64,000 nt of DNA. Source: Candidatus Aveggerthella stercoripullorum. GTDB taxonomy: Bacteria > Actinomycetota > Coriobacteriia > Coriobacteriales > Eggerthellaceae. A program made the translations under genes and the position numbers. This document shows positions 15,662 through 21,168 of this stretch, piece by piece. Under the pieces are notes generated by a model that worked only from the letters and a program-made list of their open reading frames with translations, was not told where the DNA came from and did no database searches. The first letter of the stretch is position 1. Every line of letters starts with the position of its first letter. The stretch covers positions 1 to 64,000 of the forward strand of contig DVGB01000004.1 of assembly GCA_018712955.1 (NCBI GenBank), in the 5' to 3' direction.

Positions 15662-15679
15662 TAACGCGGCCGAGCGGGA

Positions 15680-15836
15680 GGAGGGACGCAGAGTGCTCGG
15701 TTCGACGTTCCGCTGCTCGGTTATTCCTTGGGACCAAGGAATAACCTCGTGCGCTGCACTGCTTCGTGCCTAAAAATGCGCGCTTTGCGCGCTGCAGGAG
15801 TAGCACTCAGACTCACCGAGCACTCTGCGTCCCTCC
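15680..15836 (+). repeat. Structured element, copy A
   Basis: A 157-nt unit bounded by a perfect 21-bp inverted repeat (15680-15700 with 15816-15836). Inside are TCGACGTTCCGCTG (15702-15715), a 13-bp hairpin with a 2-nt loop (15719-15746), TGCGCTGCACTGCTTC (15750-15765) and a GCGCGCTTTGCGCGC hairpin (15778-15792). These parts recur in the same order on the other strand at 15856-16049, but with different stem sequences. It may be an RNA gene, a REP/MITE-like DNA element, or an mRNA leader structure. Confidence 0.8.
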
Positions 15837-15855
15837 CCCGCTTCCAATCGCGCCC

Positions 15856-16049
15856 GCATGCCCGGTCTCGGGTGCGGGCGGGGCGTATGGCGAAAGCGAG
15901 TCTGAACACCATTCCTGTAGCGCGCGAAGCGCGCCGTAAAAGACATGAAGCAGTGCAGCGCATGAGCTTGAGCCCGACGGGCTCAAGCGAACAGCGGAAC
16001 GTCGAGCTAGAGCGCCATGCGCCCCGCCCGCACCCGAGACCGGGCATGC
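15856..16049 (-). repeat. Structured element, copy B (inverted)
   Basis: A 194-nt unit bounded by a 37-bp inverted repeat with one mismatch (15856-15892 with 16013-16049). Read on the minus strand its core matches copy A: TCGACGTTCCGCTG (16004 down), a central hairpin GCTTGAGCCC/GGGCTCAAGC (15966-15988), TGCGCTGCACTGCTTC (15962 down) and GCGCGCTTCGCGCGC (15934 down). The outer stem and central hairpin differ in sequence from copy A but keep their pairing. It ends 33 bp before thiE. Confidence 0.8.
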
Positions 16050-16081
16050 AGGCGCATCTCGAAACGAAGAAAGGAAACGAC

Positions 16082-17905: not shown

Positions 17906-17929
17906 TCTGCATGCAAGGTATTGGACGAA

Positions 17930-18090
17930 GATTCCGGGAGAGATCCGGCGGCAACTCGCCGGGCGCCGAAGGGGCAGAAACTCTCAGGCAAAAGAACCGG
18001 AATCGGACAAACCTCTGGAAAGCCGATTGAACGGCGCCGACGAAGCGAAGCCTGCTGAGCGGGCGAATCTTTCAGGCAAACAGACAGGGG
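17930..18090 (+). promoter_or_regulatory. Tandem glycine riboswitch
   Basis: Two consecutive aptamers are visible. The first has GGGAGAG, then GCCGAAGGGGCAGAAACTCT, then CAGGCAAAAGAACCG (to ~18000). After the linker ACAAACCTCTGGAAAG, the second has GCCGACGAAGCG and CTTTCAGGCAAACAGACAGGGG (to 18090). The aptamers normally control glycine cleavage or amino-acid transport genes. Here no recognisable plus-strand gene follows; the next gene is on the opposite strand, ending at 18319. Confidence 0.92.
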
Positions 18091-18318: not shown

Positions 18319-21168
18319 TTAGTACGGTTCGTCCAGCGGCGCATGAGCCTGGGCATCGGCGTCCAGGGAGAAGAACTTCCCCTGCCGATACCGATCAAGC
18401 GCCACCAGCGCAATCATGCCTGCGTTATCACCGCACGCGGACAGCGGCGGCATCGTAAGCCGCACGCCAATCTTCTTGCACATGTGCTCGTACGCCGCAC
18501 GCAACGCCGGATTCGCCGCCACACCGCCGCCCAAACAGAACTCTTTCGCGCCCGTCTCCACGAGCGCCGTCTTTGCTTTGGCCACCTGGACGTCCACGAC
18601 CGCTTGCTGGAAGCTCGCCGCGATATCCGGCAGATTGAGCTCCCGCCCCGCCTCGCGTTCCTTGTTGATGTACGTGGTCACGGCAGTCTTCAGGCCGGAA
18701 AGCGAAAAGCGCAGATCGTGCGAGTGGAGCAGCGCGCGCGGGAAGGGAATGGCTTTCGGGTTGCCCTTTGCCGCAAGCTTGGAAATGACCGGGCCGCCCG
18801 GATACCCCAGGCCGAGCGCTTTTGCCACCTTGTCGAACGCTTCGCCGACCGCGTCGTCAATGGTCGACCCCAACGTCTCGTAGTCGCCCCACGCCTTCAC
18901 GAGCACGAGCATGGTGTGCCCGCCCGAAACGAGCGAGACCACCATGGGCGGCTGGATATCGGGCGTGGCAACCTTGTTGGCGTACAGATGGCCTTCCATA
19001 TGGTTCACGCCGATAAACGGCAGGTTCGCGCCCCACGCTGCACCCTTCGCGAAGGCGACGCCTACGACAAGCGCGCCCACCAGGCCGGGGGCATACGTGA
19101 CTGCCACCGCATCCAAATCGCGCCAACGAAGGCGCGGCACGTCTATGCGGCGGGCTGCCACCTCCAGGCATTCGTCCGTCACCCCGCAGATGGCTTCGAT
19201 ATGCTTGCGGCTCGCAATCTCCGGAACTACGCCGCCGAAACGCGCATGGAAGTCAATCTGGGAGGCCACGATGTCGGAAAGGAGCGTCCCCTCCCCGTCG
19301 ATGACGGCAGCCGCCGTTTCGTCGCACGAGGACTCAATGGCCAAAATGAGCGGACGGTGCGCGCTCAGCACGGCTTCCACACCCGCTGCAGAAGACGCAG
19401 CCGAAGCGCCCACCGTAGCCGCTTCGGAGGACACCACGCCCTGGTCCTGCGCAATCGCCTGCTCCTGAAGCGTCATGCCCGCCACATCACGGGATGCAAG
19501 CGGCAGCGGGCCCGTCATGATGACCGCGTCTTCGCGGTCGGAGTAATAGCGCGGACGCACGCCCAAGGATTCGAAACCGAGCGCTTTGTAGAGCGCCTGC
19601 GCACCCGTATTCGACGCACGCACTTCCAACGTTGCCTCGTGTGCTCCCAGATCGCGCGCGTCAGCCGCAGCGCGCGCCAACAGCCCGCGCGCAATACCGC
19701 GGCGTCGGCACGCCGGCTCAACGGCAACCTTCAATATCTGCATCTGCCCGTCGACCACCCACGTGCCCACGTAGCCCGCAAGCATCAGGCCGTCCGCGCC
19801 GGCCGCAGCGTCCGCCCACGCCGCCGATTGGCAGGCCGGTCTCTCTGCCAAACTCACGATGGAGGAAGAGCCGCATTCCGACCCCAAAATCAGCGAGGGC
19901 GTTCCTGGTGCCGGAGATTGACGGGATTCCGAGGGCGTAGCGTGCTCCGCACGTGAGTCCTCGGAATCGCGGCAAAATCCGGCGCCGGGGGCGGCCGCAG
20001 CGTCAGCAGGTTCCGCCGGCTGGCAAGCCGGCGGAACCATATAAGCCGCCCACCACACGCGGTCTTTGCGCGGCAGTTCGTCCAGTACGAGCGCTTCGCT
20101 CCACGCATCCGTGCCCATAGCACGCGCCTCCAACGCCGCAACGTCGGCCGCGTGCGCCGCATCGAGCGGCTTGTAGACCACCCCATGCTCGTCAGGCTGC
20201 GCATTCAAGATAGCCGCATCATGCATGGTGCGGCGCTGGTCAGCGCGCAGCCCCGCTTCGGATTCCTGGACACCGGTCGTGAGATTCTTCGGGTCGTTCT
20301 TCGCGAGGCGGATACGCTCGTTCTCCTCTGCATCGGACAGGCGCGTGTAGACCGGCAGCGCAAACGCCGGATTGCCCGCCTGCGCATCGCACGGGTCGAA
20401 GCCGTCCTTTCGCCAGGCAGCCTGGAACGCCAGCAGCAGCCCTTCGCCCGTCGGCGTCCAGAACGCTTCGTCCGCAAAGGTGCCGAGCGGCGCGAACAGG
20501 TCAGCGTACTTTTTGAGCGCATCGCCCGCGATGAGCGCAGTCGATGCACCATCCCGCCTGTCGGAGCTTGCCCGCCTGGCCCCATGCCCTGAAGCAGCAC
20601 CCGTTGAAGGCCCGTCCTGAACGTCCTCCCTGCCATCGTCGCCGTTTTCGCCCGGCAGCACGACATTCAGCCCTTCAGCCAAAAACGATGCTGCGTCGGC
20701 CGCCTTCAGCACGCAGTCTTCGTTTTTGCGCACCACGTCCGCATCGGTCAGCTCATAGCGGACGGGATAGACCTCTTTGCGCATGGCATCCGCCGCCACG
20801 GCGATTGCCCCGCGCACGCCTGCATTCTGCAGTTTCCACGCCAAGGCGTCCATCGTGGACACGCCCCACAACGGCACTTCGAGCGCGCTCGCGACCCCCT
20901 TTGCCGTTGCCATGCAAATGCGCACGCCCGTAAACGAGCCCGGCCCGCGTCCGCAGACGACGCACGCAATCTGCCCGCGATCGACGCCCTCGCGCGTAAG
21001 CAGCGCATCGATCTGAGGGATAAGCTGGGTGTTCGATGCACGGCGCGCCTCCATTTCGAAACTTGCGAACGCACGCACGCACTTCGCTTTCGCATCCAGC
21101 CGTCCCAGCCCGATGGCGATGACCTCGTTGGCCGTGTCGAATGCCAGCACGATGTTTCGCTGATTCAT
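18319..21168 (-). CDS. tsaD: TsaB-RimI-TsaD fusion (tRNA t6A synthesis and N-acetyltransferase)
   Basis: One 949-aa polypeptide joins three enzymes. Residues ~1-300 are TsaB-like (FDTANEVIAIGLG, CGRGPGSFTGVRI). Residues ~325-590 form a RimI-type GNAT acetyltransferase (VAVEPACRRRGIARGLL, NTGAQALYKALGF), interrupted by a ~75-residue Ala/Pro/Ser-rich insert. Residues ~605-949 are TsaD (ESSCDETAAAV, metal ligands in NHMEGH near 722-727, GVAANPALR). TsaD with TsaB and TsaE places threonylcarbamoyl on A37 of ANN-decoding tRNAs; RimI acetylates ribosomal protein S18 in other bacteria. The ATG at 21168 lies 135 bp after tsaE on the same strand. Confidence 0.95.
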   Translation of the reverse strand: MNQRNIVLAFDTANEVIAIGLGRLDAKAKCVRAFASFEMEARRASNTQLIPQIDALLTREGVDRGQIACVVCGRGPGSFTGVRICMATAKGVASALEVPLWGVSTMDALAWKLQNAGVRGAIAVAADAMRKEVYPVRYELTDADVVRKNEDCVLKAADAASFLAEGLNVVLPGENGDDGREDVQDGPSTGAASGHGARRASSDRRDGASTALIAGDALKKYADLFAPLGTFADEAFWTPTGEGLLLAFQAAWRKDGFDPCDAQAGNPAFALPVYTRLSDAEENERIRLAKNDPKNLTTGVQESEAGLRADQRRTMHDAAILNAQPDEHGVVYKPLDAAHAADVAALEARAMGTDAWSEALVLDELPRKDRVWWAAYMVPPACQPAEPADAAAAPGAGFCRDSEDSRAEHATPSESRQSPAPGTPSLILGSECGSSSIVSLAERPACQSAAWADAAAGADGLMLAGYVGTWVVDGQMQILKVAVEPACRRRGIARGLLARAAADARDLGAHEATLEVRASNTGAQALYKALGFESLGVRPRYYSDREDAVIMTGPLPLASRDVAGMTLQEQAIAQDQGVVSSEAATVGASAASSAAGVEAVLSAHRPLILAIESSCDETAAAVIDGEGTLLSDIVASQIDFHARFGGVVPEIASRKHIEAICGVTDECLEVAARRIDVPRLRWRDLDAVAVTYAPGLVGALVVGVAFAKGAAWGANLPFIGVNHMEGHLYANKVATPDIQPPMVVSLVSGGHTMLVLVKAWGDYETLGSTIDDAVGEAFDKVAKALGLGYPGGPVISKLAAKGNPKAIPFPRALLHSHDLRFSLSGLKTAVTTYINKEREAGRELNLPDIAASFQQAVVDVQVAKAKTALVETGAKEFCLGGGVAANPALRAAYEHMCKKIGVRLTMPPLSACGDNAGMIALVALDRYRQGKFFSLDADAQAHAPLDEPY

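Follow-up and report, generated by a model that had tools for sequence, protein, structure and literature searches.

The two inverted elements in the thiamine gene region of the window (the whole stretch of 64,000 nucleotides that was analysed) are members of a dispersed repeat family. The element is mobile, and whole copies, including the outer arms, have been inserted lineage by lineage. The copies can adopt a three-way junction in which the unpaired joints are conserved and the stems change freely, yet stay almost fully Watson-Crick paired. With moderate confidence, we describe the element as a non-coding, mobile, REP-like DNA repeat of the Eggerthellaceae, built as a large three-way junction, tagged with GTAG and probably recognised as a folded single strand.

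Structure of the two copies

Copy A occupies positions 15677-15839 of the plus strand and copy B about 15845-16055 of the minus strand. Both lie between the genes of a thiamine-binding protein (PF01910) and ThiE (PF02581), and ThiM (PF02110) precedes the thiamine-binding protein. An earlier, sequence-only reading had placed two inverted copies here with a common order of segments inside the thi operon; the places and the order are confirmed in the sequence, and the gene setting by Pfam. Read in one direction, each copy consists of an outer arm, J1, hairpin H1, J2, hairpin H2, J3 and the second outer arm. The outer stem, H1 and H2 form the three helices of the junction (110–200 nt in total across the family), with the conserved strands J1, J2 and J3 as joints. 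The consensus is ACGTTCCGCTG[C/T]TC for J1 and TC[G/A]TGCGCTGCACTGCTTC[G/A]TG... for J2, while J3 is about 19 nt long and ends in TCAGA. Hairpin H2 reads GCGCGCTTyGCGCGC in A and B, and the sequences of H1 and of the outer stem differ between the two.

In copy A (plus strand), the 25 nt arms of the outer stem, 15677-15701 on the J1 side (supported also by the fold) and 15815-15839 on the 3' side (supported also by a covariance model match), are an inverted repeat with 96% complementarity. Between them are J1 (15705-15718, ACGTTCCGCTGCTC), the hypervariable hairpin H1 (15719-15746, 13 perfect base pairs between 15719-15731 and 15734-15746), J2 (15747-15777, TCGTGCGCTGCACTGCTTCGTG...), H2 (15778-15792, GCGCGCTTTGCGCGC) and J3 (15793-15811). 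In copy B (minus strand), the arms are 43 nt long and form an inverted match of 95%, from 16013-16055 on the J1 side (also a covariance model match) to 15850-15892 on the J3 side. They enclose J1 (15989-16002), the hypervariable H1 (15966-15988), J2 (15944-15965), H2 (15920-15934) and J3 (15901-15919). In both copies the junction strands are defined by their sequence and by conservation in the family, and H2, like H1 of copy B, by sequence and fold. The stems had earlier been described as fully paired over 21 and 37 bp: the near-perfect pairing stands, while the lengths are corrected to 25 and about 43 nt. The head-to-head arrangement can also be made more precise, as it is the J3 ends of A and B that face each other.

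Folded as DNA, both copies are far more stable than shuffled sequences (z of -9.5 for A and -12.6 for B; none of 200 shuffles was as good in either case). The covariance model R1 matches A at 15689-15827 (110.5 bits, E 4.4e-27) and B at 15887-16018 on the minus strand (106.5 bits, E 5.5e-26).

Two other features were observed further along the window. A single glycine riboswitch aptamer (RF00504, 64.3 bits) is found at 17925-18009 of the plus strand, with no clear plus-strand protein gene directly behind it and the next long frame on the minus strand. A frame of 949 amino acids at 18319-21168 (minus) resembles, as judged by eye, a fusion of TsaB, RimI and TsaD.

Distribution of the family

DNA searches revealed more copies in the window's own genome (on contig C76, and a degenerate one on C66) and in both congeners, and in total copies in 17 of 138 genomes of the family. 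The covariance model search of Coriobacteriia that the sequence-only reading had proposed, run with a model built from 19 copies, extends this to 41 of the 138 family genomes and 19 of 48 genera, with 1 to at least 24 copies per genome. In one complete genome (G050) relaxed filtering recovers 28 copies, of which the poorest has an E near 0.003. Among 398 genomes drawn from the class, the model is positive in 34, every one of them in the Eggerthellaceae, and finds no copy outside this family. The copy-bearing records with names include Anaerotardibacter muris, Curtanaerobium respiraculi and an Eggerthella MAG, from which we infer that the host family is the Eggerthellaceae or its GTDB equivalent.

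None of the Rfam covariance models matches the element, and a search of open-access literature turned up no account of a repeat like this in Eggerthellaceae. Plasmids gave no match. A scan of genome contigs with a 16-base J2 pattern returned mostly chance matches; one viral contig carried the pattern, and the covariance model gave no match there. Carriage by plasmids or phages was thus rejected. A copy in another genus (L146/L178 of G062; L146:1466-1585) also lies amid thiamine genes, between a frame resembling the C-terminus of ThiC and a ThiM-like start that follows closely; this setting is probably a coincidence.

Covariation of the stems

The pairing was examined in an alignment of 19 copies whose columns were anchored on J1, J2 and J3 and not on pairing, with H1 reduced to its first and last 7 bases and a filler loop. 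In this alignment 82.1% of the cells are paired, compared with 59.9% after shuffling, and the value falls to 28–52% when the partners are slid by 1–3 columns. Changes on both sides of the pair are seen in 29 of 34 pairs. For 90 distinct copies the paired cells reach 91.0% (60.2% shuffled) and the covariation score is 0.584 (0.156 shuffled; not reached by any of 500 shuffles). Both partners have changed in 31 of the 34 pairs, some of them inside the conserved J1 and J2; as this alignment was made to the covariance model, its figures lean towards the model. The outer J1-J2 pair is CG in 54 copies, UA in 31 and UG in 1, and the inner one CG in 62 and UA in 28. This switching between C-G and U-A assigns J1 and J2 to a single extended helix beneath H1.

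Compensation is also visible at short evolutionary distance. In nearly identical copies of one genome, H1 differs by compensated changes (G064, G072 and G030), for example ACGTCC/GGACGT, ATGCTC/GAGCAT and ATGTCC/GGACAT in G064, and uncompensated intermediates of both the A.C and the G.T kind are present. A compensated stem change is found, too, between orthologous copies of the sister species G001 and G002. The suggestion that the loops are conserved while the stems change and remain paired, made from two copies, therefore holds far beyond them. It survived a search in which further copies might have been lacking or their stems non-complementary: copies were found, and their stems are paired.

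DNA or RNA

Conserved unpaired strands with compensated stems are also what a structured RNA would display, either a small RNA or an element of the 3'-UTR (e.g. a terminator or a protector of transcript ends), spread and kept for its RNA fold. In 60 of 82 cases the gene upstream is directed towards the J1 side, and one junction position keeps a G.U pair in 64 of the 90 copies, both in line with such a role. Against it, the gene on the right is directed towards the element about as frequently (53 of 82), and copies A and B have opposite orientations within one operon. G.U is hardly ever seen at the covarying junction pairs, no Rfam family matches, and the copies are lineage-specific insertions (see below). 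The isolated stem mismatches comprise 24 G.T, 36 A.C (p 0.16) and 32 transversions, next to 2158 Watson-Crick pairs. A single transition yields G.T or A.C about equally, and selection on RNA keeps G.T, so that 24 versus 36, as indirect evidence, carries no RNA signature for the J1-to-J3 strand; the opposite strand shows no significant one either. The proposal of an undescribed structured RNA accordingly receives no positive support, and we regard this reading as unlikely.

Insertion and mobility

Insertion flanks were searched together in three congeneric genomes (G000, G001 and G002), and the orthologous sites were then read. The insertion before hisH in G002 is missing in G001 and G000, where the flanking genes overlap as TGTAATGG, i.e. 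by their stop and start codons. As this overlap is present in both congeners, there is no trace of a lost element. The copies A and B of the window are missing at the orthologous sites of G001 and G002, and the trmL insertion of G000 is missing in the same two genomes. Another insertion of G002 is missing in G001, whose site reads GGGCTGTAA/CCGTTG, and one insertion is common to G001 and G002 and missing in G000. The outer arms arrive together with the insertion. Pre-existing palindromes as targets were rejected, since the hisH site was no palindrome.

One site in G001 retains the outer hairpin without the core, as might be expected if ancestral, non-mobile hairpins had been retained in some species and lost in others. 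This explanation is refuted for these loci, and highly improbable overall, by the empty hisH site of both congeners and by the genome G131, which carries about 16 full copies with 86–97% identity, arms included. In the core-less hairpin of G001 (L275, on G001:C108) the arms are joined at a short repeat, CTCGCC, and have more mismatches than the intact copy of G002, which looks inverted relative to L275. Another copy in G002 has lost its H2/J3 part.

Palindromic ends and many dispersed, non-coding copies also bring to mind a classical MITE, a double-stranded DNA with terminal inverted repeats that is moved by the DDE transposase of a related insertion sequence. Within three genomes (G131, G064 and G072) the copies do have arms in common. 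Arm sequence is, however, shared neither between lineages nor, in the genome and genus of the window, between most copies, which makes the arms hard to see as ends recognised by sequence. Thus the terminal inverted repeats of conserved sequence that characterise a classical MITE are lacking. The conserved part is instead the unpaired core, and no clear target-site duplication could be made out at any of the three empty sites that were read. A classical MITE is for these reasons quite improbable.

Ends and gene context

Where the outer stem has a sharply defined foot, the J1-side arm is flanked on its outside by CCTGTCC and the J3-side arm by TAC. Of 73 copies, 21 have TAC immediately next to the stem, where chance would give about 1, and 18 have GTCC at the opposite end. 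These tags recur in several genera with unrelated stems; many tagged copies come from one genus (g2), hence not all are independent. With the foot marked by a slash, CCTGTCC/.../TAC is read on the other strand as 5'-GTA/G...C/GGACAGG, in which the G of GTA/G lies within the stem. In the copies of the window the GTA(G) tag cannot be made out clearly; A ends in CT/TCC.

The copies are located mainly downstream of genes and often as inverted pairs. The neighbouring genes, called by a rough ORF finder, are convergent in 37 cases and divergent in 6. Inverted pairs occur in the window and at L216, L217, L218 and L235, and no convincing gene was found between paired copies. In two pairs of G008 the spacer is another short repeat: the pairs at L224:1129-1486 and L234:687-1022 enclose a MITE-like repeat with the ends AGGTTCCA(A)GAAG ... 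CTTCTTGGAACCT. At L198-L209 of G131, copies adjoin other repeats, including CGTCATTGCGGGCTTGACCCGCAATCT-like units that recall CGTC-tagged REPs. On G050:C1, 24 of the 28 copies lie in one replichore (1.55–2.43 Mb), several of them as plus-then-minus pairs 0.5–1.3 kb apart.

Search for the mobilising enzyme

Y1 transposases are encoded in 71 of the 138 family genomes. The share is about half among the genomes that carry the element too, so that no association is seen, and the copy-rich genomes G131, G008, G004 and G050 have none. The RAYT genes that were looked at are bordered by different repeats, and as a rule the element does not lie next to them; the single copy found about 1 kb from a RAYT (L288, a short contig) was taken as chance. 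A RAYT or other Y1 enzyme as the mobiliser was consequently rejected, as neither co-occurrence nor linkage is seen in the family genomes. A bias towards one replication strand, as in IS200/IS605, is not observed in G050 (11 plus and 13 minus copies in one replichore), the one complete, copy-rich genome on which this comparison rests.

A structured, non-coding and dispersed repeat could also be a retroelement, multiplied via an RNA copy by a reverse transcriptase of the group II, retron or DGR type. RVT_1 proteins are missing from most copy-rich genomes, namely G131, G008, G050, G015, G078 and G009, and by this the reading is largely refuted; we consider it very improbable.

Relation to known repeats

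The main REP superfamily is marked by GTAG at one end, and its members are found downstream of genes and in pairs of opposite orientation (PMC3733652); the substrates processed by TnpA-REP are single-stranded REP hairpins with a conserved motif in front (PMC8266576). With these REPs and BIMEs, mobilised by RAYT (TnpA-REP), the element shares its non-coding, palindromic nature, the GTA(G) at the stem foot on one strand (in the fraction of copies given above, A and B not clearly among them), the position mostly downstream of genes and the often opposite orientation of neighbours. It differs in size and shape, a REP being a hairpin of 20–40 bp, and in what is conserved, which is the sequence in REPs and the junction strands, not the stems, in the element. 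It is moreover copy-rich in genomes without a Y1/RAYT gene, and the RAYTs of the host family carry other repeats. The proposal of a REP/MITE-like element with paired ends is nonetheless supported by the dispersed copies, their absence in sister genomes, the GTAG-type tag, the downstream position and the inverted pairs.

The end hairpin of IS200/IS605 has a short tag at its foot. Such hairpins and other folded single-strand substrates are recognised by structure near the end (PMC6006769), and the element may be recognised likewise. It differs from IS200/IS605 in having no internal transposase gene, in forming one compound structure in place of two separate end hairpins and in the missing association with Y1 genes. 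The attC site of integrons is variable in sequence, conserved in structure and recognised as a folded single strand. The likeness of the element to it, in variable sequence and conserved structure, is one of analogy, with no claim of membership; no cassettes are seen by the element and the architecture is different. Repeats of the ERIC, RPE and Correia/NEMIS type are intergenic, palindromic and MITE-like, with about 100–200 bp. The element resembles them in location, palindromic form and length; they have a common sequence including the ends, while the element keeps mainly the unpaired joints.

For the REP-like single-strand repeat that we favour, a protein would recognise the folded strand by its junction strands and its GTA(G) tag rather than by the stem sequence. 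The same protein might move or copy the element in trans, in the manner of single-strand transposases of the HUH/TnpA-REP type. Since such a protein would not read the stem, the stem sequence would be free to drift, with pairing presumably kept by selection or by hairpin-templated correction. Should the element influence the host, for instance by bidirectional termination or by protecting transcript ends between the thiamine genes, this would be incidental. A bolder version, that this is a new class of single-strand mobile DNA which has its identity only in the unpaired junction strands, has its arms rewritten while paired and is moved by an enzyme other than Y1 (RAYT), can be offered only tentatively.

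Repeats are usually recognised by shared sequence, so a family like this one, whose largest parts have none in common, is missed by ordinary repeat finders. It provides a natural test of how a protein can recognise a branched DNA fold. It also lends itself to testing by what route REP-like repeats multiply where the genome has no RAYT gene, a question that is likewise open for the CGTC-tagged REPs (PMC3733652). With about 16 near-identical copies in one genome and up to 28 in another, complete one, the element may be active now, and it may be tractable in culturable Eggerthellaceae.
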